Source: Chromera velia (lineage: Eukaryota > Sar > Chromeraceae). Taken from it: a DNA stretch of 54,086 nt. A program made the translations under genes and the position numbers. The stretch spans positions 15,001 through 69,086 of the forward strand of contig JAHBMJ010005529.1 in the NCBI GenBank assembly GCA_018398765.1. The letters run 5' to 3'. This document shows, piece after piece, positions 1,246 to 53,160 of the stretch (its first letter is position 1; each line of letters starts with the position of its first letter). Under the pieces are notes generated by a model. That model worked only from the letters and a program-made list of their open reading frames with translations, was not told the DNA's origin and did not search any database.

Positions 1246-1685
1246 ATTTGGCGTGCGAACGGTCGCGAGAAAACAATCCATGCATCCCTAGCTCCGCACA
1301 ACATGCAGAGAGAAACGTGCCCCTCAAGCAATATATATATGTGCGGGACGCCAGTGCATGGCACAACATCGATCTCGGCCACGCCAATGCATTCAATTAA
1401 GCTATAGGATCTTCGATGGCAAAAAAGAACTGGTATGGGACAGACATAGCTGCATATTCTCCTGTACATCTGCAGGATGGAGGTAACAGGCCCACCAGTA
1501 GGTCCAAATTTGCAGTCAATCCTGCGTCTGTGCATACAGCTAAGCAGCAGCTTTTTGACTGACCTTGCTACGAACTCTGCATACACAGTTCAATCAAGCT
1601 TCTGTCTGGACACGTGGTGAGAGGATCAAATCTTCAGGCCAGAAGTCCTATATGAAGATAAACACGCAGACGTTGAACTTCTCTC

Positions 1686-2480
1686 CACTTTCACCTTTCC
1701 TGCTTGAATGACGGCCTCTCCACTTCCATCTTTCTGTCTGTTTGCGTGACGGCCTCTCCACTTTCATCTTTCTGTCTCTTTGCACAACGGCCTCTCCACT
1801 TCCATCTTTCTGTCTGTTTGCATGACGGCCTCTCCACTTTCATCTTTCTGTCTGTTTGCATGGCGCCTCTCCACTTTCGTCTTTCTGTCTGTTTGCATGA
1901 CGGCCTCTCCACTTCCATCTTTCTGTCTGTTTGCATGACGGCCTCTCCACTTTCATCTTTTTGTCTGTTTGCATGGCGCCTCTCCGCTTCCATCTTTCTG
2001 TCTGTTTGCATGGCGCCTCTCCACTTCCATCTTCTGGCAGTGTTTGCATGGCGCCTCTCCACTTTCGTCTTTCTGTCTGTTTGCACGACGGCCTCTCCAC
2101 CTCCATCTTTCTGTCTGTTTTGCACAACGGCCTCTCCACTTCCATCTTTCTGTCTGTTTGCATGACGGCCTCTCCACTTCCGTCTCTCTGTCTGTTTGTA
2201 TTACGGCCTCTCCACTTCCATCTTTCTTTCTTTCTTTCTTCTTGCACGACGGCCTCTCCACTTTCATATTCCCATCTTTCTTTTTTGCTTACTTGGTGGG
2301 TCTCCACTTTCTTCTGTCGTGCGCTGTCAAACATGACGACTCTCCACTTTTGTCTATCTTGCCGGCTTGCATGACTACTTTCCGCTAGCTTCCATCTTTC
2401 CTGCCTGCGTGTTAAGGGCCTCTCCAGTTTCATCCTATCTGCTAGCCCGTCTGCTTGCAGAAAGTCCGCTTCACTTTCAT
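1686..2480. repeat. Minisatellite, period 38 bp (with 36-bp variants), about 20 copies
   Basis: The unit contains ACGGCCTCTCCAC, then TTCCATCTTTCTGTCTG. Successive ACGGCC starts at 1711, 1749, 1787 and 1825 show an exact 38-bp period. Later copies alternate with a 36-bp variant carrying GGCGCCTCTCC. Copies degrade toward the right end (2280-2480). The array is strongly pyrimidine-rich on the plus strand. Because the unit has no stop in several frames and 38 is not divisible by 3, it generates overlapping long frames on both strands. These are artefacts. Confidence 0.93.
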
Positions 2481-15508: not shown

Positions 15509-17321
15509 ATGCTCACTTCTGTCTTTCCCTTGTACCTGTATTTGCTGTTTGCCCTCTTAGCGTGGGGAGTGGCTGCCAGTGGTACGTTCAAGGAAGAGCG
15601 CTCTCGCTTTTTCGAGCGACTTAAGCGCTTCAGGTCCTCATTGCCAAAAGTGCAGGTGAACGCAAAGAACATGGGGGCTAAACTGAAACTCCAGAAGAAA
15701 ATGTTTGGAGTGCCGATCAGCGAACTTCAAGTCAGTGTGTACGGCCTCGAAAAGAATATATTTATCCCTGTCGGGGACTTCCAATTCTCATGCAAGGACG
15801 CAGGGTGGGGTACTCGCGTGATGCCGTCTCCATCTCCGCCTTACGGCATCCTGTGTTAACTGATCATGCCGCCGTTCAGGCGGCTTCCTGATGTCTCTTG
15901 TTTTCTGCCTTCACATTGAAGATGACAAATTAATTTGCACCCGCCCCCCCTTGAAACTCTATGAATTGAAGGATTGAATGTCACGGGTAGAGCAGAACGC
16001 ATGCGCATCAACAGGTGCTCATTTGCATGAGGTAGACAGCCACGAAGCAGCACACAAAACACACATAGAGTAGCAAGCCACGAAGCAGCACACAAAAGAT
16101 ACATAGAGTAGCAAGCCACGAAGCAGCACACAAAACATACATAGAGTAGCAAGCCACGAAGCAGCACACAAAACATACATAGAGTAGCAAGCCACGAAGC
16201 AGCACACAAAACATATATAGAGTAGCAAGCCACGAAGCAGCACACAAAACATATATAGAGTAGCAAGCCATGAAGCAGCACACAAAACATACATAGAGTA
16301 GCAAGCCACGAAGCAGCACACAAAACATACATAGAGTAGCAAGCCACGAAGCAGCGTGCACACACACGCACATATTAGTTAGTACGTACGTACCCTCTCT
16401 CTCACACACACCCTGGGGGTGGGGGGGGGGAGAGAGGAAGAAAGAGAGAGAGAGAGAGAGAGAGATCCCGACTGGCACCCTCTTTGCACGTTGCAGCGGA
16501 TTGGATTTGTCGGAGAAGTAGAGATACTCTTTGTGAGCTGCAGATTGTCTGTGCGAAGAAATTGCGCGGACCCGTCTCCGCATGCAGCTGCTCTCTCAGC
16601 TGTCAGATTTGTTCTGAAGCTCATAATACAGGATGCATGCCGCTCGCTAAATTTTCTGCATGACCTACAACTTTTGTATGATTTTTGCTCCTTGCTTTCC
16701 TGCCTGCCCACCTCCCTGCCTGACTGCTTGCTTCTATGCCTACCTGCCTTTTTTCTGGCTGCCTGCTTCTATGCCTACCTGCCTGCTTGCAAGCATGTGT
16801 ACCTGCCTGCCTGCTTGCAGCTCGGCTTCATGTACGACCACGAGACGAAGCAGCTGAACCCCGTGTCGTGCGTCAGAGAGAACCTTCTCCAGGGGGACCT
16901 CAGCCTCCAGGGGTCCTGCCTAGAGTACCGGAACTCGTGGGTGGTCCCGCATGCGTCCAAGGATAAGCAGGAGAGAATCGCGGCAGGGGGGGCAGAGTAC
17001 GCGGAGGGGTGTGTGGGGAGTCGGCTGAACTTTGTTGGGGGTGTGGACTTGAAGAGGGGCAAGGTCTTTTGCCGGTTTGGTATTAAGACTGAGCGCATTT
17101 TACCTGTAGAGGTGCTCCACGACGGTCTCCGTTTCGCTCCAAAGTTCCGACTGGGACGTGAAAGCGGGAGCCCCAAGATGGAAGTGAAGGCGCGAGTACG
17201 ACTCCCCGCTCCCCAAGTCGAATACGAATGGGATGTGGACACGAGAGAGATAGAGGGAAGGCAGGGGTTTGGGCCTCTCGAGGTCGACTTGGAGGAAGTC
17301 GCACTTTGTGTCGTGGCCTGA
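15509..17321 (+). CDS. Secretory-pathway protein of unknown function, two exons
   Basis: Exon 1 is 15509-15730 and exon 2 is 16821-17321; both junctions are phase 0 (CAA|GTCAGT and CTTGCAG|CTC), giving 240 residues. The N-terminus MLTSVFPLYLYLLFALLAWG is a clear hydrophobic signal peptide with likely cleavage after VAAS. There is no second membrane segment. The mature part starts Lys/Arg-rich (KEERSRFFERLKRF). It ends in a beta-rich region that has several cysteines (VSCVRENLL, GSCLEY, EGCVGSR, KVFCRFG) and strand-like blocks such as KMEVKARVRLPAPQVEYEWDV. I do not recognise it. Lumenal, extracellular and plastid fates are all open; there is no Phe at the cleavage site. Reading of exon 1 also stays open past 15730 to a stop at 15858, so an alternative shorter product from an unspliced transcript cannot be excluded. 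Confidence 0.6.
16041..16354. repeat. Minisatellite, period 38 bp, about 8 copies
   Basis: Units start CACGAAGCAG at 16041, 16079, 16117, 16155, 16193, 16231, 16269, 16307 and 16345 (the last partial), an exact 38-bp period with very few differences. The array lies in the intron of the gene at 15509-17321. No minus-strand frame has a stop, which creates a Cys/Leu-rich pseudo-protein of up to 191 codons. Confidence 0.96.
16405..16466. repeat. CA/GA microsatellite
   Basis: A short CACACA run, a G-run and then (GA)n, following the minisatellite inside the same intron. Confidence 0.85.
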
Positions 17322-27900: not shown

Positions 27901-30900
27901 CAGACCTCCCGGTCCCTTGGAAAGATAGAGGGACGACCCCCAGAAAGTCCAAGCTCTCTTTCGTGAGTGTTCCTGTCTTGTCGAAGCACATCACCCTGAC
28001 ATTTCCTGAAAGTACAGCCAGACAGGAAAGTGGAAAGGGAGAAAATAGAAAGAGTGAGAAAGAGAGACGGAAACCAGGAGGACGGAAACCAGGAGAACAT
28101 GAGAGGTACGAAAGGGACCTTCCGCAACTCTGAGGGATAGAAGGCTGCACAAAAATCACCGCTACCCTTGTGGACAGGCAGGCCAACGTACCTGCACAGG
28201 TCGTCCTTCCAGGTTGGAGACAGGAGATTCCTCTCTGTGCTAGTCGGTGGGCAGCTCGAAGAGGCCCAGCCACAAGCACTACAGGAAGCAAAGGGGTGAT
28301 GACCTGCGAAAACAGAAGCAGCATCCGACCCGACAGTGCACACACACTCGAAGAATTTTTGCTTTCTTTTCTTTCTTCTTTTATGAACATCTGATCGACC
28401 TCTCTCTCATCACGGACTTCAATCAGCGGCGAAAAACACAAAACTGAAAACCGGAACATCTTCCACTACCTCCGTCAGACAGTGACCGACCTGCGACATC
28501 GTCGTGACAGCCAGGGCCCACTGGTCCAGCCAGGAGGACTTCGAGCCCGCAAGCACCATCAGCTGCAGGGTCAGATTGCAGGTTGAAAAGAAGAGTCCGA
28601 AAGTACCAAACATACAGATTGTTTGTGGACTACTCCCACTGTACGTTTCTTTGAAACATGAAAAACACTCTGTGGGAATGTGTGTGTGGGCGCGACGTAT
28701 CTGCATTTGTCGAGCCAACTGAGTGACTGAAGTCCAAAGCCTGAAGATCTGTCATAGTTCTTCCTCGACATTCGCTTAATGGCAGGCACTCAGCTTGGAC
28801 ACAGACTTCCCCTCTAGCTGCCTCCTCTCCTTTCTTCTCTCATGATGTTCCCTTCCCCGGCGACTGCCTGACCGACTGACTCTCATGGAGGTGATGAAGA
28901 CGAGGACACCGTAGAAGACCATCCCGAGAACAACCAGAGGGAGGTCCTCCTCGAATTTGAACTTCACTTCCTCAGGAAACAAAATGGAGGACACAAGACG
29001 ACCCTTGGCGGTGTGGATGCCCTGCAGTCAGTCAGTCAGTCAGTCAGTCAGTCAGACAGTCACCCCCATTCATCCACTGCATGCTTCATTGAAGAACATT
29101 GAATGAACCAACCCTCTTGGCGGCAGATGTGCGACTCTCAAATTGAAACGAATCATAATGGGGGGGGCTGGGAATCAAGCTGCATGGATGGAGTCAGAAA
29201 GGAACTTTTTCGGCACTTCACCGTGCATCACCTATGAATCGATGTCAGAAAGAAACGGCATGGGATGATAGAACAGCAGAAAGAAAAACCGATCATCGAC
29301 GCATGTCAAGACTAACCTGAGCAACGACGATGCCCACCGCTGTTTTATCTCCCCAGCCCTCCTCCGCTCTCCCTTCAGTCTCCCCCCTTTCCTCTGATCC
29401 CTCTCCCTCTTCCCTCATGGGGTCTCCAGTTTCAGCTCTGGACAATCTTCGCTCTCCAGCCTTCCCATTTGTCTCTTCTCCAGTTCTCTGCTTGTGCATA
29501 TGCAAACTTTGCGTCAGGGAGGATCCCTCGGTCTCTCGTTGACCTTCTACCGTCCTTTTCTCGTCCCCTGGCTTCTGTCGGGTCTCCTTGCCCCCCACAA
29601 CCTGTCCATTGTCTTCAGAGAAATGCAGGACGGGAGATGGAAAGGGAGGGGAGTCGAGACAGCAGTCCGGACTTTCCGCCTGACTCTCGCTCCTCCCCTC
29701 CCTTTTCCCTTTCCCCTCCTTTTCCATTTCCTCCAAATGGGACGTCTCCATCACGGTCGTCCCTGCAAACACCTGAAAAGCTGCCGAGGCCTTTGCTGTT
29801 GAGTCAAAGACCACTCTGGGGTCTGTAGGCACTTGTCGCTTCTCTACTGGATGTGCCTCCCCTGTGAGAGCGGCCTCGTTGCACACCGCCGCGCCTCTGA
29901 CCAACGCAATGTCGCAAGGGACAGTCCATCCTCCCTCCTGCAGTGCAGACAGCACGTAGACAGACAACACGGGGCAGCTAGGTATCACTTGTACTCCTGC
30001 TTCTGCTGGGTTTTGCTTGGTAAGCATGTCACCAAAGATTACGCGGAGGTTTGACTTTCATGAAAGAAGAAGACACGGGTACTGATAGGAGGGAGACTCA
30101 CGAAGGGACAGAGTCAGAGTGTGGGAACAGAATTTGAGGGATACAGATTTCAGTTGCAGCGCATTGTTGCCACACAAGCTAACGTAGAGACACGCCAACG
30201 AACCTTCACATGGATTATGTCTCCATGCATGATGTCCTCAGATGGCACATCAGTCCACCTGCCTCCCCGATACACTCTCTCCACGCTGCTGTGCTTGGAC
30301 ACCCTCTGAAGAGTCACCTGCAGAAACAGAAATAGAGTGAATGATCGAATTAAAAGAAGATTCCTGAGAGTGCATGCCACAACCAACCATTCTGAATTTA
30401 TGCTTCGATCGTCGAAAGAGATCGATCAACACTTGGCAGTCACTCCCGCATATTCATCTGCACGGACAGTAGGGCGCCTCTTCTCTTGCCCAAAATGTCC
30501 TTTCCTCCAGCGTCTTCTTAGAATCACTCCAGGTCTTGATGTCTACTCATTATTTCTCATGTCCGCCCGGAACCCCCTCCCGTCCCCCCTTCCTACCCTA
30601 CCTGGTTGTTTCTCACAACTGATGCCTTGATGAGTCCCGTCGCAACGATGAGGAGACCCGTGGCGGGTGCCACAACGATGTTGCCGTACCTGCAGGCACG
30701 CAGACATATGTACCCAGCAGGACGACCAGAGTGTTTATCAAGCGCTCTGTGTACCCCCCAGAAGAGACGATACTGCGCCTTGACAGACACCCCGCAATCA
30801 GAACTCTCTGTCTTGTTGTCGCATTGTTTGAGCGAATGTCCGCCAGAAGAGGAGACGGCTTCATCAAGCTATTGCAAAACTAGACTCTCGTCTGCTCTCT

Positions 30901-34397: not shown

Positions 34398-35209
34398 GCA
34401 ACGTAGACGGAGACGGGCCACGACGCTATGCAGCGAATCGACTCACAGCACACACTGGATTCGGCCCTGTCGGATACCTCCCCATCAGACGACCAGTCAA
34501 TTTGTGTATCGACCTCGATAGGCACTTATATTTCTTTCTGCCGCTCTAGAAACGTTTCTCCGTCGAAAAATTCAGGGAAGTGGACTTTCAACTTGTGATT
34601 TAAAACAGAGACGCCGTTACGCAAGACTGCAAATGCGCTTCATGTGCACCCCTCTTATCGCACAGGCAAACGATGTATAGCGATGACTCAAGAAGTCAAC
34701 ACCTTCAGGCCGATTGCCCACGCGCACCTTCCACTTTCAGGGTCGAAATTCAACAAAATCGACGTCCAGTTCGCGAAGGGCATCAAGAAAGGTCAGAACT
34801 TATCGACTGTTGTCCGAGTTTGTGTCAAGTGTACGTTGTACGCGTTACGCGCGCGCGCGGAGAGCTAGCCGCCCACGCCGTCCGAGCTAAATTGACAGTG
34901 CGAATGTCCCGGAAAGCGAAAAACGTCTCGGACGACACATACGCGGTGTCACGGCACTTTCCGGGGCCGCGCGGGACTATAGGCACTTGCTACTTTGCGC
35001 GCAAAGCGCGCGAACTAACTTTTTAAATTTGTTGAATTGTATATGCACAGCATGGTACCGATATATTAATATATATAATAATATTATACCACATGCACTG
35101 GATCCGAAACCGTCAAAGTTCTGAGCATAGAGTGAATGAGTCAGGAGTCGATGTCTTCCAAGTTCTCAACATTCTGTTATTTTATCGTGCGTCTTTGCGA
35201 GTCGCTACG
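34398..35209. promoter_or_regulatory. Divergent promoter interval between P5B ATPase and AT3-SGNH gene
   Basis: About 810 bases separate two divergent start codons. It contains GTCCCGGAAAGCG (34905-34917) and an inverted copy, CACTTTCCGGGG (34964-34975), then GC-rich TTTGCGCGCAAAGCGCGCG, then an ATATATTAATATAT stretch at 35060-35085. The upstream motif is shared with 15190-15213. No TATA element or transcription start can be assigned from sequence alone. Confidence 0.4.
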
Positions 35210-37561
35210 ATGGTAAACCGTTCAGCTTTTCGGGAAGACATTGAAGCCCTACGTGGTTTCGCGATCCTCCTCGTTGTCTTCTTCCATGCGCAAGTTCCGT
35301 GCTTTGCAGCTGGATTCGTTGGGGTTGACATCTTCTTTACTATATCAGGGTTTGTCATTACCCGATCTCTTATTTCCGAAAACCAAAAGACCGGGTCGAT
35401 TGACTTGTGGGGGTTTTACTCTCGCCGAATTGGCAGACTCCTTCCAGCCTCACTCCTCCTGGCGGCCTCCGTCGTTATAGCGTCACTCTTCATCTCTTCA
35501 TCTCCAGAGTTCGTCTTGGATGCTAAAGACGCCATCGTGGCCGTGCTGTACGGCCTCAATATACAACAAGCCCTGACGGCCGATGACTACTTTCAAGAGC
35601 GCGAGGAGGATCGGCAGACTCCTCTTTTGCACTTTTGGTCCCTCAACGTTGAGGAGCAGTTCTACATCCTGTGGCCCCTACTGATGAAGCTCTGCTGCCA
35701 ATTTCGAGGGCGGCAGATCTTCCTTGTTCTTGCAGCATGTGGTTTGATGGGGGGCTCCTTCGTGTTCAACATCTACTACACGGAGAACAACCAGCCGTTC
35801 GCCTTCTACCTCCCTGTATCTCGGGCATGGCAGTTTGGCGCTGGAGGCCTCTGTGCTTGGCTTCAGGAGAAGCCCCTCTCTGGTACATGGAAAGTTCTCA
35901 CTCAGGCAATTTTCTACTTGGGACTGGTTGTATCTCTTCTCTTCCTCAACAGTGAAAGGACATGGCCTGGGTACTGGGCCCTCATACCCACCGTCTTTAC
36001 CATGGCATATATCGCAGGGTTCGAAGAGGGCCCCGAAGCTTTTCACCCGCACGCTGAAAGGCCCACAGAGTCTGCATATTCAGCAGAACTTGTAGGGTCC
36101 CAGGGACGATTGGGATTTCTTCGTGGGCCATTTGATACGGTTGCCAGCGGGGTCTGGAAGAGTATGCTCTTCTTGGGACAGCTGTCCTACTCTTGGTACC
36201 TCTGGCACTGGCCGTTCCAGATCTTCTTCCTCCGTCTGTTCCCCGGTACGTCGGCACGCTGCTCCCATACATTTGTTCCTCTGGCATCCGAAGCTCACGC
36301 ACCCTTTGTTTGATCAATCTTTCTATTTGCCAAAGTAAACTGTATCTTTTTGTGCATCTGTCTCTCTGCATGCAGATGCCTCTGTTGCTGCTCAGGCTTG
36401 GGCGGGAACATTTGCTCTGGCTCCCGCCTGGCTCTCCTTTGTGTTCTTGGAGGCACCATTGCGAGCAGCAGCTAAGAAAAGCACCAACTCGATGTCAATC
36501 ATCTTCAAGGGGGCGGTGGCGATGCTGGTCTTTGTTGTCGCCTCCTGGTTTCTCATTATCAGCCACAGCCTAACTCCTGCAAGCAGCCCCACGACGGTGG
36601 GAACGGTCCAGTGGCAGCAGCAGCAACAGCAACAACAGCAGCAGGAGGACCAGCAACAGAAAGCGCCGCAGTTCGGAAAAGCAGATGGCCTCTCCTCTGT
36701 ATCGGAGGGGGGAGAAATCGAGGAGCTAACCCTCCCTCCTCAGAGGCAGGCTCCCCTCAATCTCTACGCTCCTGAGAAAAACCAGTCTCCATCGGTGCAT
36801 GGAACAAATGAAGACGGTAGCGTGGGAACGGTAGGGGGGCAGAGAGATTGGGGGGATGACTTTATCTTTAAGAATTCAACTTTTGGCGAGCTAAAGGTGG
36901 ACTTGTGGTTGAAAATGCTCCGCCCGAGTCTGGGAGAATGTCCGGAGGCTCGTCCGGAGGAGGCAGGTCAGTCAGACACCGCGTGATGCTATACAGCAGC
37001 ACTGTGCTTTTTTGGTTGGATCAGAGATAGAGCTGGGAAACGGGGAAGAGAGTGAGCGCTTTTGGGCTCTGCATTCTCTTAAAATGCGCTTTTTGCTCGA
37101 ACTCTTTCAGCTCTGCATTGCTCGGCTTTTTTGACTCCTGCAGCTCTCCATTTTTCCATTTCTGCTGGACCTTTTTTGAACTCTGCAGTCCCCAAAAACC
37201 CGCTTCCAGCAAAGCTGAAGCGGACTGGGATGTGCAGTCTGTACGGAAACGGCACGCAAATTGTCAGCACTGGACCTCGATACGGTCAGCAAGAACAGGA
37301 AGAGAAGGAGGGGGAGAAAGCGGATGAAGGTCGACACGGGAAACAAAAAGGGTAGGAGATATGCGGCGGGGGAAAAGAAGAGGGCAGTAAAGGGACAAAT
37401 GAGGGGAGGGAGAGAGAAAAGAAGGAAGGGAAAGGAGGGGAGGGAGGGAGAAAAGAAGGACGAAAGGAACGAAGGAAGGAAGGGAGCGAAGAGGAAGGAA
37501 GCAAGGAAGGGAGGGAGGTAGGGAGGGAGGGTGGAAGCAAGGGAGGATAGACGGATAGACG

Positions 37562-37843: not shown

Positions 37844-39234
37844 AAGAAAGAAAGAAAGAAAGAAAGAAAGGCAGAAAAAGACAGAAACACAGAAAGAAAG
37901 GAAGGAAGGAAGGAAGTTGCGAGTGAAGGAAGGAACCGTGAGAAGAGCAGATGGAAGAGGGGAGAGACAGAACGAAAGACAGAAGAAAGGAGGGAGAGAA
38001 GCGATGAAGCAGTGAAGGAAGGACTGAANGGGGGGGGGGGGGAAACTCAAGTGAAAAAGAGCAGATGAAAAAAAGAGATATATTAACAGGAAGGATGAAG
38101 TGAATCCTCTAGAAATTAGGAGTGCTTGACTGGTGCAACCATAGAATGGAGGACAGAAATAACGGCTACATGCAGAAAGTTGAAAGAGAGGGACTGCCGA
38201 AAGCGGAGAGAAGACAGAGAGCTGCATGGGGGGGGGCTCTTCTTTTCTTCTGCAGAATCGTGACGCACGCTTGCATGAATGGTATATCGATAAATTGAAG
38301 CATACCAATCAAACCCTGGTGGTATCGGTTAAATCACACGTCATGGCGATTTCGAACATGTGTTTCGTGTCCTTCTTGCCAAGTTAGACGCATGCATTCC
38401 TTTGTGTATGAAAAAACAGATGTCTTCCCAGACCTATCGCAAGGAAAATTGAGCATCTTTGCGTACGGGGACTCCCATCTGTCCACCATTCTCCCAGCGT
38501 TGGTCAGCTTCACAGAGTCTCGGGGGATTCCACTGCACTTCCGGTTTGCCCTGGGCTGCCCACTAGCGGTAATCCATTGGAAAAAGAGGTACAAAGCCCA
38601 GAACTACATGTGGTACGGATGCAATGACACTTCGTCTGCATTCATGGACTACATGACTGACCCCCCGTGGGAGTCCCACACGCAGCAGGCGGGGGGATCG
38701 ACGGACAACAGCGTCGTTCTGGTCATAAACTTTTTCTACGGTGCTGAAAGTCTGAAGATCAAACCTCTTCACAGCACCAAAAACGATCCCTGGCTCGAGG
38801 GGGCGGAGGCTCTCGAGGCCTTCGATGCCGGGTACGCTGCTGCACTTTCTCGGCTTCTCAAGGCCGGACGCCGTGCACTCTTCGTGCTTGCAAATCCGAT
38901 GAAAGCCGGAGAACCTCTGTTCAAGTTCAACAGGTGCATTGCCGAGAAGCGCCATCCTTCGGATTGCGACTTTCACTGGAGCAAGCCCGTCCTCCCTAAA
39001 GTAGAAGAGCTGGTCAGGGAGCATCCAAACCAGCTCGGCCTTTTCGACTTCAGTGACTACGCCTGTGAACCTCCAGAACGGCCTCCGAACCCATCACGGC
39101 TCTGTAAAGCCGTGGTGGACCACCGCGGCGTCCTTGTAGACAATCACTTCAATAAAGACACGGTCCTTAGCAATCGTTTTCAACAATTTTTTGCAAAGAA
39201 ATTAGAAGAAGAGCTTGGCAAACTCAATTTTTGA
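35210..39234 (+). CDS. Acyltransferase-3 / SGNH-hydrolase fusion (OafA-like), three exons
   Basis: Integral membrane O-acyltransferase expected to move acyl groups, usually acetyl, onto glycans or lipids using an attached SGNH domain. Exons: 35210-36245, 36376-36966 and about 38420-39234; phases match (phase 1 both times), giving about 813 residues. The acyltransferase domain has FREDIEALRGFAILLVVFFH with the catalytic-type His, GVDIFFTISGFVIT, FYSRRIGRLLPAS and LNVEEQFYILWPL, with about ten hydrophobic segments ending near FVFLEAPLR and ASWFLIIS. A poly-Gln linker (CAG/CAA, 36613-36660) leads to the SGNH part: FAYGDSHL (nucleophile Ser) and, near the end, VDNHFNKD (likely catalytic His). A second in-frame ATG at 35093 would add 39 residues. 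The acceptor of exon 3 could instead be at 38432, losing four residues. The family is widespread in bacteria, so an ancient transfer is possible, but the introns show the gene is settled in the nucleus. Confidence 0.88.
36611..36662 (+). repeat. CAG/CAA repeat encoding poly-Gln
   Basis: A mixed CAG/CAA run encodes about ten consecutive Gln residues, then EDQQQ, in the linker between the acyltransferase and SGNH domains. Confidence 0.9.
37290..38045 (+). repeat. Strand-asymmetric purine tract with CAGA, GAAA and GGAA arrays
   Basis: Some 750 bases in the second intron (36967 to about 38419) of the AT3-SGNH gene are almost free of T on the plus strand. GGAA-rich sequence (37290-37545) is followed by CAGA and GAAA tetranucleotide arrays (37545-37915), more GA-rich sequence and a G-run containing one N at 38030. 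Minus-strand frames made of Leu/Ser/Cys/Phe are artefacts. Confidence 0.93.
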
Positions 39235-46579: not shown

Positions 46580-49500
46580 TCATGAGTTTAGAGAGTCCGA
46601 CAAACCTTCAGCATCGACTGTGTGATTTGCTGCGGCCGACTTTGCGACACCGTCTAATTGCTGCATCGATTCATTCCACTGTTGCAGGACTGCACGCCAG
46701 TGCGTCTCGTTACGAAATGTTTCGAAAACGGTAAACACATCTGAAGCTCCGCGCTCTGAAGCTCCTTTCCTTTTCGAAACTACACTTTGATCTTTTGTTT
46801 CATTCAGATCCAGGTCATTTTTCAGGTCTTCAATTCCCTTACTCGCCCCCCACCTTCCTCGCCGCAGACGGCGGACAATCCTTCTCCTCTCAACCCCTTC
46901 ATCAAGCAGCAGACCGCGCTGAAAGAGCTGCACAGTATTCGACATGTGGGATGTCGCAGGGGGAAACCAGACAGTAAGATACTCAAGCACGGTGCGCAAA
47001 GCGCGAGCAGAGGACGCCTCGGACGATCTCTGTCTGTCCAAGACGGCCCGGAAGCCGTCCAGACCCCCCGCTAAGGAGAACATCCAACTGCGTCTCCTCA
47101 GGTCCCTTCCCCTGAAGCCTTGCACGGCCAGGGAGTCTCTCTGTGTGTTCAGTCCGGGCTGGCCAGACGAAACCTCTCTGAATGCAGCGGAGGGGCATCG
47201 CAGTATCCAGGCAAGCCGTCTCTTCATAGTGGGTGGGCGGGAATGGATACTGCCTTTTGAGGACTTTATTTTGAGAAATGCAGAACCGGCAGACAAAGGA
47301 GCATCAGGACGAGAAGAAGGGAACTTCTGTAGGGATGAAGTGGAGAAGTCAGAGGTGATTCTTTCAGAACGAGAACGAGGGGGAGAGGGGCCTTGGGGGG
47401 AAGGGGAAGTGGAGGACCAGAGATCAGTCAGATCACCCCCAAACGCAAATGGATCCTTTTCCTTTTTTTGTGAACTTCTTTTCTTTTCCTCCTCTTCCTG
47501 TTCTTCTATGTCTCTGTCAATGATGAATGGCATGTTAGGTTTGATCTCCATCGTCTTCAGTGTGTCAAAGCGAACACTGGAGGGGAAAGGTGAAATCTCC
47601 TCAATCTCTCTCAATGGATAAGCTGAGGGGAAGATGCTTTGAGAAAGCTTCCCGGCCTCAGTCTCTTCTACAGAAATGCCCTCTAGCAAATCTGACCTCA
47701 CATTCCCTTCCCCTTCCCCTTTGACTGCCTCAACTCCCTCCTCTTCTTCTATCCACCCTTCAACGTCCAAGTCAAAGAAAGATTCTTCCCCTGCTTCCAA
47801 TTCCAACCCCCCCTCCTCCCCCTGTGCCCCCCCCGAGTCCTCCGACTCCTCCACGGTCCTCCCCTCAGTCTCATTCACATCCCTGCCCTCCCTCCCATCA
47901 GCAGGGGGCAGAGACTCCTCTGTACACCCCATAACACTCACCTCTTCTTCCTCTCCAACCCATCTCTCATATACATCCCCGCCCCCCCTCTCGCTACGAA
48001 AGCCGTGACCGGTACTTGTGTCTCCACCCTCCCCCGCAACCGCAGAGGCAGCAGAGACGGACACCCGACTCTGACGATTCCTACTGCTGCCCCGACTCCC
48101 TCCCCACCCGCTCTTCAGCTTTCGGCCCGGGCCTGCTGTCTTGCTGCTGTCCCCAGGAGGCGCATGCCGATACTGCGCAAGGGGAGCGCGTGCTTCTGTC
48201 CCCCACCCTGCATCCTCCACTGCCCCCCCCCCGAGTGCGGATGCCACTGCAATCAAAGAATCGGCTTCATCGGAGGGAAGGAAGACCTGACCTTGCTCTT
48301 CACTGAGCGACACCCCGCCCCTCATTTCAAACCAACCCAACAAAAAGGGAGTCGCTGCAACTGCAGCTACTGCATCGCCATTCACTCCCTCCCCTTCTTT
48401 CCCCCGCTGTGGGAATAGAGGATTCAAAACACTGCCCGCATTTATGTACCGACAACTCAACCACTGCAGCCAGGAGGCGATAACAATCAGTCGCGGGGGT
48501 GTCAACAGAGTCGGACGACCGATTCGCTCTGCCTTCAAGCTCTGTCCGCACAGACAAAAAAGAAAAGGACTAACCAGGGCAGCAACGCGGAGGACATCAT
48601 CAATCCGGCTGATGTGCCACCGGAAAGTGCTGTTTGTTTTCTTCCCAACACTGTTGGAATTTTTTACTTCATATATTTTTCCCATCCCCCCCAGACACCA
48701 ACGGGCGAATAGAAGGACGCCCAAACGGGAGGCTGAACTTTCCAGGCGGATTTCTGGAAATACCAAACCATTTTTCCGCTTGACCAACAAGAAACTACCA
48801 GCTGCAGTGAGCACCCCTGACAACCAAATCGCGAACGCCGGACCAGTCTCAGCGTCCTTCTCTGTCTGCCCCCCCCTAGCATTTTCCGTTGCCAGGCCTG
48901 CTTCCGTCACCTCATCCCACCTCCCCCCCCCCGACCACCAACCTACCGGACCGACCCCTGCAGTCTCTGCCAGTCCGGGGAGCGGAAAGCACAGCGAGTA
49001 CTGCGGAGTATCCTTTGCACCCTTGCACGAGACTTCTTCCAAGGCTTCTAGGACGGACGTGTATGCTGGGCAGGTGACTCTTCTGAGTGGCTCTAAGTAT
49101 GCGCCATGCAATCGGACCGACGGAAGGCTTTCCGGGGCCCTGAACAAGCGCCCCACAGTCGCAGCGCAGAGCAAGACTCTCAACTGGGACCTAGTTCTGA
49201 CATGTCCGAGAGCGAAACCTCGAAGGACCTCTGGCAGCACTCTGCGGACCTGAAGACAGCTCATCACAACCTCAACTTCCCCCCTTGCCCCTTGCCCTCC
49301 CCCACCCGGACAGAAACGAGACGCCAAAACATCCATCTCTCTAGGATCCATACTATTGCCCTCTTTTTCTTCCCCTTCTGTCAACTCTTGCAGCAAACTC
49401 AGATCAACACCGAGCTCTGCTGCAGCCCACGAGAACGGAATGGGGACAGGAACGGCAGACGGCTCTCTTCGGTGAGATGCAGCAATGTTTTGCATCACTC

Positions 49501-52500
49501 TCACCCACTCCCGGAGATGCCATTTGAGTAAGACACGATCCGGAGTCAGCAAATCAACAAAAGTTCTAATCAGAGAAAGGCACAAAAGGGACCGGGGGCA
49601 GGTGAAAGCCCTCTGGACAGGCGAAGAAGACGAAAGGGTCTCCCACAACAGCTGTCGGGACACACCCAAACAACGTGACAGGCCTGCAACCGATATATTG
49701 CGTTCTTCCATCACCCCTTTCAAGCAGCTAAGAGAGGCCTCCAATTCCTTTTCAGAAAAAGGGGAAGTGTCCCCTCTGCTGAAACCATCAGCCAACGAGG
49801 AAGAGGCTGAAGTGATGGGGACAGAGATGAGAGGGTTGTCAACACACGAGAGCACGAGATGTTCCAGTTGGTCTGCAAACGGGGAGGAAAAGAACGCGAC
49901 CGTCGCACGAACTCTGACTGAGTCTGTGTTCGACTGTTGTGACTGATCGGGACCGAAAATAGAAGAATCTTTTCTCCCTTTTTGGTCTCCTCCAGTTGAG
50001 AGAAAGCTTACAGAGCTCTGGAGGTGGGGGAAACACCCGAACAATAATTCTGAACGTTCTGTTGCTCGAATCAATACTTCTTCGGGCAAAGACTCTCTTT
50101 CCAGACAGAGGGGCGGCGGAAGTAAGATAAATGTGCTGCTCTCCTCTGACTCAACTCTGAATCTATGCTGCCCCTCTCCCTTCCCCCCCCCCCTTTCATC
50201 TGCTGCCCTTCTTTCCGGATCTGCTGGTGACGACATTTTATCCCCCCCCGGAGACCCTCCCTTCCTGATGGCAGACAGAGGGAGCCCTTCAGTCTTCCTG
50301 TCTACTATCATCATTCTGAGTACAGACAAAAACGCGGGAGCGAACAGGAAGCCGAGACGAGAAAGGGAAAGTTCTCCTGGGATCGTTTGACTGCCTCGGA
50401 AGCTCTCCAACACCTCCCCCACACTCCTCTCAACAACCTCCCACAAGCCCTCACATTCCCGTGCTCCTTTCTCATCCTCCTCCTCTCCATCACACAAGAG
50501 AGACTTTAAAGTCAGACACTCCGACTGATTCAAAGACTGCCGCCACTGTAGAAGAGTAAAACCCACACCTGCACTCACTCCCATTTTCCAGACCGAAGTC
50601 CGTGTCCCTCTGTGCCGATCTGGCGGCAACGCAAACGGAGGACAGAACCATTCCGCAAACGCATCAGACACCCTCAGTGTTCTCCCCCCTCCACCCTGCC
50701 TGCTCAAATTTCCGTTTCGTGAGTCCAACACAGCCTCCTCAGAGGCGTTCAATTCAGGGTCGTCCCCTCTCATGAACTGACGAAGGGAAGAAGGAGACAC
50801 AATTGAGGGCAGAAAGGGATCAAGACGTCGCAGGTCTTTCTCATATTCGTCTTCCCCCTCGCCTGCCTGCACCCCCCCTCCCTCTAAGACGGGCCTGTCC
50901 CCGACACCAACTGCCTGCAGACAGGCAGAGAGGTGTAAGACCTTCTCACGCAAAACCTGAGTGTTGGGTCTCAATCTGGGCACAACTGCAGCCTGAAACT
51001 CAGGGTCCATAGGGCCGCCTCTCTGGTGATTCAGCAGGGCGGCGTGCAATATGTCAGCCTGCTTGTGTGCGGGAAGAGAAAGAAAGTGAGCTGCCTCTTC
51101 TCTCGCCGTCCTCCCTCTGTCACGGTGCAGAAGAGGTAACGAAGGGTCTCTCAGGAGGCCCAGGGGCCTGCCTGTTCTCACGCAGAATCTGCGCAGGGCT
51201 GCATGAACAGCGTGAGCATGGTCGCTGACATCCATGAGGACATCCGTGGGGAGGGAGACGGGAGGGATGCGCAGTAAGGGCCTGCTGGCTGCTTTCCTTT
51301 CCTCTTGCGGGGAGTAATTAATGGAAATGGGGGGGAAAGGGGCCCGAGCGGAGTCACGGGCTGGCATGGAGGGCCTCTGTCTTCTTGAAAAGGCAGGGTG
51401 TGCCTTTGGAGAGGTATCAGAGGGGACTTCACCATTGGGGGTCATGTGTCCCTGATTAGGCTCCACTCGTTTCTCTGCATGCAGTGAGAGCGATTTAGGG
51501 AAGGATCAATCAACAACGTCCAGATTTTGTTGATTTACTCTTGCAATACTGTACTTGTGCCAACTGATGCAGCTTTCAGTTTTCTGCCACGGCTGCGTGC
51601 CTTCGCTTGTAGGCATCACAAGACTCAACGCATGAACAAGTCAAGGAAGGAAGGAAGGAAAGAAGGAAGGAAGTGGACGGGTCTGCGGGCGCACTGACAA
51701 AGGGACCTTCAGAGTGACCACAGATGCCTGCGGGGGATCGAAGAAAGGGGCGACGCAGAGAAACAGAAAGAGAAACGCACGATCGTACACACAGAGGGAG
51801 AAAAAGGGAGCATCAGACTGCCGAGCCCACCTGAGTGCGGCGGTAGAGCGACTCCCGCAGATTGAACAGAGCCTTCAACTAAATTCCCTGCTGCCTCTAG
51901 TCCGTCTACGTTTCTTTCAAAGTATCTCCCCATCCTCCTCTGCTTCTCACCCGTACAAAGAGGGGAGAGAAACCGAAGTGCGGTGTCAAACCGCCGCTTC
52001 CAGAAGGCAGAATTATCCACTGTCCCCCCCTCTTCTGACATCAGATCGATGTTTGTTTTCGTCCACTCTGAGATCAGCTGGTGAAAATTCTTAATTCCCT
52101 TCTCCCCCCCCTCTTCCAAAAGCCGCCTCTGCAAAAGCTTTCCGGGGTCCTCCAGGAACTCTCGGGCCGCCAAGGGGGACCCTAGGGGCACAGCAAGATG
52201 GCGGGAGAGCGCAAGGAGCGTGTGGGGAGACGGAGCCTCTTCAGAGAGAAGACACTCGGAGATGTCCGAATTCCCTCTCGCTCCCACCTTCACGCGCTGC
52301 CTCTCCAACAAACGGCCTGGCCCACGCTTTACAGGTGTCTGAGAGACTTCCTCAGATGTCTCTCTGCCGAGTGAGCGAATCGCTGAGACAGGAGCCCCAG
52401 TCTCATCTGCAAGGTTGAACAATGCCACTTCCTTGGCGGTGTCACGGTCGGATCCGCTCTCTAAGGCGACAGCCGTCTGGATGGAGAGATACAGATCCAC

Positions 52501-53160
52501 ACGTCTCCTGAGAAGGCCGACGTCAGGCAGCATAAGAGAACAGAAAGCGGAAAAAAGTCGGAGAGTTTTATGCCGTCTTCGCCAGTCTACAAGCAAGGGG
52601 GCATTCTCGTTTTCAACAAACTCCTCAATCTCTTCAAATGGAAGTCCAACCAATGCCGAAACCGTTTTGTCATCGCATTTCCTGTGTGCGAGAAAATCCG
52701 TCATCACTTCTCGGCATCTTCTGGCCACCACTTTCGCGCAACGCTTCGGGACACGAAGGGATGGTAGTGGGCGTGACAGGGACAGGTCTTTCTGGTTGCC
52801 GGTAGAAGTTATCAAGAGGACTTGGACGTCCGGAGGCTGGACAAACCACTCGGCAAGCGCGCGCACGTGCGGGTTTCTTGTGTGCACGGCTGAGGTTCCC
52901 ATCAGGGTTTTCATTCCCCTCTCGGTGATGCCCAACCGCGGTGGCACGCTTTGACGGTTCTTCAGAAACCGTGCACAGACGGACTTCAGTCTGCCCCTCA
53001 CCCTCTCAACATCCTCTGAAGAATACAATACGTCGGTCACCACGTGTTCTGGTCGTGGAGGTAATAGAGGAGTAGGGGAGAAGAATCCTCCTGCGGTGAA
53101 GAAGCAAGAAAGAAGAAGCAACACCCGCACACCACATGAACCTGCAACACGGAAGATCAT
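46580..53160 (-). CDS. Giant, probably plastid-targeted protein with two degenerate LAGLIDADG motifs, two exons
   Basis: Exons (minus): 53160-51831 and 51474-46580, joined at phase 1 (CTCAG|GTGGGC … GCATGCAG|AGAA) for 2074 residues. The N-terminus MIFRVAGSCGVRVLLLLSCF is a signal peptide. It is followed by TAGGFFSPTP, matching the Phe-at-cleavage leader of complex red plastids, then a Pro/Arg/Ser-rich stretch. The middle has several short helix-turn-helix-like units (VSALVGLPFEEIEEFV, LSRCLGVSRQLLWETL, LSRHLAVPLG). A homing-endonuclease-like domain follows: WLSGVLTAAGSF (1327-1338), a LARWCLGGMGKIY-type block and FRWHISRIDDVLR; a second motif, FLLGWFEMRGG (about 1487-1497), precedes LGGG. Both catalytic acids look altered: Thr and Ala in motif 1, Glu and Arg in motif 2. 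Cleavage activity is therefore doubtful and a nucleic-acid-binding or splicing role is more plausible. After that comes an acidic low-complexity region and a basic C-terminal part. WF.PP recurs three times. Expression level and real targeting are unknown. Confidence 0.8.
51475..51830 (-). other. Phase-1 intron of the LAGLIDADG-type gene
   Basis: The donor GTGGGC (minus strand, from 51830) and acceptor CTCTCACTGCATGCAG fuse the two long frames without a frame change. The 356-base intron contains a GGAA repeat at 51639-51672 (plus strand). Confidence 0.8.

Follow-up and report, generated by a model that had tools for sequence, protein, structure and literature searches.

A nuclear gene family of Chromera velia with a degenerate, putatively catalytically dead LAGLIDADG domain and a probable plastid-type leader

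The window analysed here is a stretch of 54,086 nucleotides of Chromera velia (assembly GCA_018398765.1, contig JAHBMJ010005529.1, positions 15,001 to 69,086 of the forward strand), and carries on its minus strand a two-exon gene for a predicted protein of 2074 residues with a degenerate LAGLIDADG domain. By sequence comparison, the assembly contains at least three further genes related to this one, and the protein does not stand alone. It is moderately probable that the family consists of catalytically dead, plastid-targeted RNA- or DNA-binding proteins derived from LAGLIDADG proteins, with a core of the organelle-intron maturase or homing-endonuclease kind.

Joining the two exons in phase across one intron (Table 1; donor CAG/GTGGGC, acceptor TGCATGCAG/A, with the slash at the junction) gave 2074 codons and a stop, and the ATG at 53160 was the earliest ATG downstream of an in-frame stop. 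The longest open frame had 1641 codons, much longer than chance would allow; when the region was simulated 60 times with a first-order Markov model, the maximum was 408. With cross-trained codon models the exons scored +0.126 and +0.160 bits per codon, among the sense frames in the joined frame only, and the intron scored negatively in all three frames. The first-pass annotation of this DNA had proposed one phase-matched intron linking two long frames, which is borne out by the 2074-codon join and by the codon scores of exons versus intron; we infer that both exons would be spliced in vivo into one gene.

Searching the window's own assembly (177.8 Mb, 4040 contigs) with the window domain recovered a C1681 member (E 1.9e-7, 37% over 99 residues, 1087-codon frame). 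A C1088 member matched the C1681 member (E 1.0e-8, and 1.1e-14 after a join across one inferred intron). A C3514 member was reached from C1088 (E 0.13 by sequence) and obtained a profile E of 8.8e-5 in a scan of the six-frame translations of fetched candidate loci plus the window. The blocks common to these diverged long frames argue for selection on the four genes. Further candidates (C2273, C392, C308, C4025 and C1007; E 0.13 to 0.94) were not accepted as members; in the profile scan C4025 gave E 4.7, and C2273, C392 and C308 were absent at E ≤ 5 (C1007 was outside the scan).

The arrangement of blocks described in the first-pass annotation was found in the window protein, with motif 1 (WLSGVLTAAGSF) at residue 1327 and motif 2 (FLLGWFEMRGG) about 160 residues further at 1487, and with the LGG-GKIY and RWHISRIDDVL blocks between them at 1371 and 1395. 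Core spacing from motif 1 to motif 2 was 160, 125 and 121 residues in three members versus 132 and 137 in I-AniI and bI3, and from motif 1 to the GxG block it was 44, 40 and 38 versus 43 and 43. Motif 1 and the GxG block were clear, and motif 2 was at its expected place in these three members but weak by itself.

In LAGLIDADG motifs the catalytic acid is taken here to stand at position 8 (D16 and E148 in I-AniI). In an alignment with I-AniI and bI3, the residues at position 8 of motif 1 and motif 2 were Ala and Arg in the window protein, Tyr and Arg in the C1681 member, and His and Gly in the C1088 member, the motif 1 alignment of the latter including a one-residue gap (n = 3 members, since motifs 1 and 2 were not identified in the C3514 member). 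As a control, 52 of 53 I-CreI relatives (an I-DmoI chimera was excluded) had Asp at position 8 in 51 cases and Asn in one. As aligned, the metal-binding acids of position 8 are lost from both motifs in all three readable members, and their different replacements would fit a relaxed catalytic constraint with a retained constraint on binding. The Thr and Ala that had been read in motif 1 were confirmed at positions 6 and 8. The Glu of motif 2, previously regarded as a catalytic residue that had been kept, is not a retained catalytic residue, because it sits at position 6, and position 8 is Arg. The window protein does not resemble an active homing endonuclease, as position 8 is non-acidic and the domain is embedded in a 2074-residue, two-exon gene.

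Descent from LAGLIDADG proteins was examined with pooled profiles of the family against 177,635 distinct PDB sequences (E ≤ 10). With a three-member profile, all five matches were LAGLIDADG proteins (2ab5, 0.06; 3uvf, I-HjeMI, 0.3; 1p8k, I-AniI, 0.47; 3e54, 0.69; 3eh8, I-AniI, 1.5), taking 3e54, an rRNA intron-encoded endonuclease matched by the motif-2 half, to be one as well. A four-member profile of the first half also matched five chains, all LAGLIDADG (2ab5, 0.0013; 1p8k, 0.012; 3uvf, 0.017; 3eh8, 0.06; 12fk, aHE31, 0.23). The entry 2ab5, labelled mRNA maturase in the PDB, is taken to be the bI3 maturase. These matches are redundant (aHE31 is itself a relative of I-AniI) and amount to about two or three independent ones, and the two profiles overlap. 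In hhalign comparisons with the halves of I-AniI, I-HjeMI, bI3 and I-PanMI the score was 35.9 (E 2.8e-5, probability 74%); permuting the columns 200 times gave a mean of 11.0 and a maximum of 17.3, and reversing the alignment gave 9.5. As calibration, the genome's own LAGLIDADG_3 proteins matched the maturase halves with E 1.3e-4.

When two real proteins were searched among 500 shuffles of the window protein, the window protein ranked first (3.4 bits) and the C1681 member second (2.3 bits), and the best shuffle scored -0.5. With the motif columns removed, the remainder aligned in register, by a small margin (16.8 versus a maximum of 16.7 over 150 permutations). An unselected scan of the 2074-residue protein in 39 sliding windows placed motif 1 at ranks 1 to 3 (21.0, 20.5 and 20.4) and motif 2 at ranks 5 and 6 (14.9 and 14.7), and in the C1681 member the top three of 19 windows contained motif 1. 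Membership of the LAGLIDADG superfamily is supported at the family level only, with pooled paralogues; at that level the profile match expected from the first-pass annotation was obtained (bI3, E 0.0013, and the hhalign result). Of the decayed double fold proposed there, the first half was well supported with pooled paralogues and the second half was weak. Placing the second half beyond an acidic insert, near residues 1890-1970, was not supported: for whole tails 13, 89 and 95 of 300 shuffles reached the score, and for chosen short stretches 83, 17 and 3 of 500 did so, the last stretch being off the expected place.

At its N-terminus the window protein has a hydrophobic signal followed by AGGFFSP at residue 23, so that the signal peptide and Phe-bearing junction noticed in the first-pass annotation were present, as judged by eye and by hydropathy. 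N-terminal leaders were seen in two of the three further members (C1088 and C1681), with ANA/FLPASF in the C1088 paralogue (cleavage site assumed by eye). A Phe directly after the signal peptide cleavage site is reported for most plastid-targeted proteins of C. velia (PMC6668581). We infer that the leader of the window protein is of the plastid-type bipartite kind, resembling this +1 Phe rule.

Several results weigh against the interpretation of the family as LAGLIDADG-derived and plastid-targeted. The leader of the C1681 paralogue was hydrophobic and had no clear +1 Phe. Linkage among the members was chain-like, the window gene was missing from the E ≤ 10 matches of the C1088 and C3514 queries, and C3514 was in the profile scan because of its own weak sequence match. 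When exon 2 was scored in ten stretches of 150 codons, the stretch at residues ~1345-1494, which is the LAGLIDADG region, had a codon score of -0.05, and an antisense frame of this exon was weakly positive (+0.063); for the coding status of that stretch the protein-level match to the C1681 member is better evidence than the codon score. The hhalign probability was under the usual comfort level, and the motif-2 half alone reached E 0.04. In the 39-window scan the signal peptide (16.0) stood above motif 2. The family matched the 52 I-CreI relatives with E 0.11 (three members) and 0.048 (four members), compared with 6.5e-10 for the maturase halves against the I-CreI family. The window domain alone scored 20.2 against the maturases, less than the best of 60 shuffles (22.5). 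A single-sequence AlphaFold2 model of 251 residues had a mean predicted local distance difference test score (pLDDT) of 43; its order of elements after motif 1 (strand, strand, helix, strand, strand, helix, extra helix, motif 2 helix, strand, strand, helix) fits LAGLIDADG, yet motif 1 is non-helical in the model.

Database searches added to these points. Neither Pfam, whose filters drop most matches above ~0.1, nor NCBIfam returned any family at E ≤ 10, PHROGs returned a single unnamed family, matched by just one of the three members queried (E 0.36), and no PDB match was obtained with a single-sequence query. In the sequence database, none of the 1255 candidates with shared words was a relative at E ≤ 1, and none of 8000 scored against the three-member alignment was one at E ≤ 10; this database says little on C. 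velia, because the window's own protein was absent from the matches listed. Pattern matches numbered 381 in prokaryotic contigs and 15 in viral contigs, none of them confirmed as relatives; among eukaryotic genomes the searches covered the window's own.

A plastid-type leader, a dead active site and paralogous expansion together suggest a binding factor. The signal peptide would bring the window protein into the secretory route, and a Phe-led transit peptide would then allow import into the complex plastid. Without the metal-binding acids of both motifs, the fold is not expected to cleave DNA in the known way. The LAGLIDADG fold binds about 20 base pairs of DNA or, in maturases, structured intron RNA; its saddle-like beta surface may have been retained for binding nucleic acid, most likely plastid RNA. 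The protein would then act in a maturase-like role as a stabilising, processing or translation factor, and its long N-terminal and acidic regions might make other contacts. Plastid transcripts of C. velia are reported to be poly(U)-tailed, psaA and atpB to be each split, and psaA transcripts not to be trans-spliced (PMC3894158). Given the poly(U) tails and the split psaA and atpB, transcript-specific plastid factors are to be expected.

A first alternative is a maturase-like splicing factor that helps particular introns of the plastid, in the way that OTP51 serves ycf3 intron 2. The best PDB match, bI3, is a group I intron maturase that is also basic at position 8 of motif 2, and a trnL intron is listed for six of the seven apicoplasts tabulated in PMC3932168; psbA had no match in the assembly. 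Such a role is unlikely, as PMC3894158 reports no trans-splicing of the two psaA transcripts of C. velia and a similar split of atpB, and a family of four or more members would seem large if introns are very few. Binding could instead be to plastid DNA, by a factor that acts on the plastid chromosome in transcription, in the nucleoid or at telomeres, in parallel to bacterial WhiA. The LAGLIDADG surface natively binds DNA. The plastid DNA of C. velia is reported to be linear with terminal inverted repeats (PMC4743939), which would suit such a factor, but no WhiA or helix-turn-helix (HTH) domain was found by Pfam and the present data do not separate DNA from RNA binding; a DNA-binding role is accordingly rated as improbable.

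Chance resemblance, in which W-L-x-G-x5-G and GxGKIY blocks of an unrelated alpha/beta protein mimic LAGLIDADG, would explain why the domain was unseen by curated profiles and single-sequence searches, why the window domain alone fell below its own best shuffle, and why the AlphaFold2 model was too weak to judge. Two overlapping profiles, however, recovered LAGLIDADG chains only from the whole PDB set, and the permutation and sliding-window controls and the near-canonical spacing also oppose coincidence, which makes it very unlikely. Within the preferred reading of a dead LAGLIDADG family that binds plastid nucleic acid, a more specific proposal is put forward as doubtful: that chromerids acquired, through a domesticated organelle-intron maturase, their own class of specificity factors for plastid gene expression. 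These dead LAGLIDADG proteins would recognise particular plastid transcripts, such as poly(U)-processed or split-gene mRNAs, with no intron involved, and by analogy would fill the role of pentatricopeptide repeat (PPR) and octotricopeptide repeat (OPR) proteins in plants and green algae.

Compared with bI3 (2ab5), I-AniI and I-HjeMI, which are mitochondrial group I intron maturases or endonucleases, the window protein shares the register and spacing of the motif 1 helix, the next strands and the GxGK-I/V block. In motif 2, bI3 has Glu at position 6 and Lys at position 8, and the window protein Glu and Arg. It differs from them in that its motif 1, too, lacks an acid at position 8, and in that it is nuclear, with a spliceosomal-type intron, 2074 residues, a plastid-type leader and long extra regions. 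In WhiA, a bacterial regulator derived from LAGLIDADG proteins, the fold has been domesticated for a role other than cleavage, as is proposed for the window protein; the latter differs in having no WhiA-family or HTH match in Pfam. OTP51, a PPR protein encoded in the nucleus that carries two LAGLIDADG motifs, is required for splicing of ycf3 intron 2 (PMC8393795, PMC9275481) and is the nearest precedent in function. The likeness to OTP51 is in being nuclear-encoded, with LAGLIDADG motifs and, putatively for the window protein, action in the plastid. The analogy is one of principle only, because no PPR repeats were matched in either exon frame by Pfam (E ≤ 10) and none by NCBIfam. LAGLIDADG_2, taken to be the Pfam family of OTP51, had no match anywhere in the assembly at E ≤ 10, and neither had LAGLIDADG_1 at E ≤ 0.001.

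The LAGLIDADG_3 (PF14528) proteins of the same assembly belong to the same superfamily and differ in their short frames (302-349 codons), in the acids kept in the four that were read, with motifs such as MSDG and FEGDG, and in having no signal peptide noticed by eye. The family matched them weakly (E 0.083 with three members, 0.022 with four), and an origin of the family from them was not favoured by the profile comparisons. LAGLIDADG_3 gave five matches in the genome at E ≤ 1, two of them above the cut-off, and all three scanned proteins were above the cut-off. The frames were L023:1126-2031 (+), L024:1183-2166 (-), L025:1048-2094 (+) and L026:1354-2373 (+), in C3377, C3397, C463 and C3473, and a match at C3862:106148-106279 was left unread. 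Judging by their motifs, these proteins may be homing endonucleases that are active or were so until recently. The C463 protein had an additional sub-threshold match to the WhiA LAGLIDADG domain, and the C3377 protein had no pattern match in viral contigs.

A domesticated LAGLIDADG protein is of a known kind; what would be new here are the lineage, the size, the architecture and the family. No description of such an alveolate or Chromera LAGLIDADG family was found in the PMC full-text literature by titles and abstract openings, a scope that does not extend to subscription papers, preprints and supplements, and neither LAGLIDADG nor homing occurs in the main text of PMC4501334, which describes the chromerid genomes. 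In the reviews consulted, the LAGLIDADG protein named as nuclear-encoded and acting in plastids is land-plant OTP51 (PMC8393795, PMC9275481). If the preferred reading is true, the present family would be a second and independent one, in a photosynthetic organism related to apicomplexans. It would indicate that the fold was repeatedly recruited as an organelle nucleic-acid binder, and its members would be concrete candidates for factors that underlie the unusual processing of plastid transcripts in this lineage.

Table 1. Coordinates of the gene, its protein blocks and neighbouring features in the window
Feature	Position	Strand	Residues	Remarks
Exon 1	51831..53160	-	1-443 and base 1 of codon 444	
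Intron	51475..51830	-		Spliceosomal-type, 356 nucleotides, GT..AG, phase 1
Exon 2	46580..51474	-	Remainder of codon 444 through 2074, and stop	
Putative signal peptide	53086..53160	-	1-25	Cleavage site assumed, then Phe26 (AGG/FFSP); by eye and hydropathy
Degenerate LAGLIDADG domain	48185..48841	-	~1322-1540	Profile evidence
Motif 1, WLSGVLTAAGSF	48791..48826	-	1327-1338	Position 6 Thr, catalytic position 8 Ala
LGGMGKIY block	48671..48694	-	1371-1378	GxG block
RWHISRIDDVL block	48590..48622	-	1395-1405	Strand end and start of the first half's long helix (low-confidence model)
Motif 2, FLLGWFEMRGG	48314..48346	-	1487-1497	Position 6 Glu, catalytic position 8 Arg
Acidic low-complexity stretch	47405..48007	-	~1600-1800	After motif 2; probably disordered
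Acyltransferase-3 frame	35036-36310	+		PF01757, E 5.1e-27
SGNH frame	38299-39231	+		PF19040, E 2.2e-9
E1-E2 ATPase frame	29296-30057	-		PF00122, E 1.8e-9
Tandem array	1681-2231			14.6 copies, 38-base period
Tandem array	16038-16355			8.4 copies, 38-base period

Within the acidic stretch of the window protein, 20 of the 50 residues at 1651-1700 were Asp or Glu, and the C1681 paralogue likewise had an acidic tract behind motif 2. An alveolin profile gave 11 matches on seven contigs of the assembly, and light-harvesting proteins gave 58 matches, many of them exon pieces; the alveolin profile also matched Caulobacter, one of 14 controls. The assembly probably consists of nuclear contigs of a photosynthetic alveolate, and the alveolate host suggested in the first-pass annotation is consistent with both sets of matches. 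Elsewhere in the window, the Acyltransferase-3 and SGNH frames lay 2 kb apart on a shared strand and are possibly exons of one AT3-SGNH fusion gene, and the E1-E2 ATPase frame probably belongs to a P-type ATPase gene as one of its exons. The units of the two tandem arrays look unrelated.

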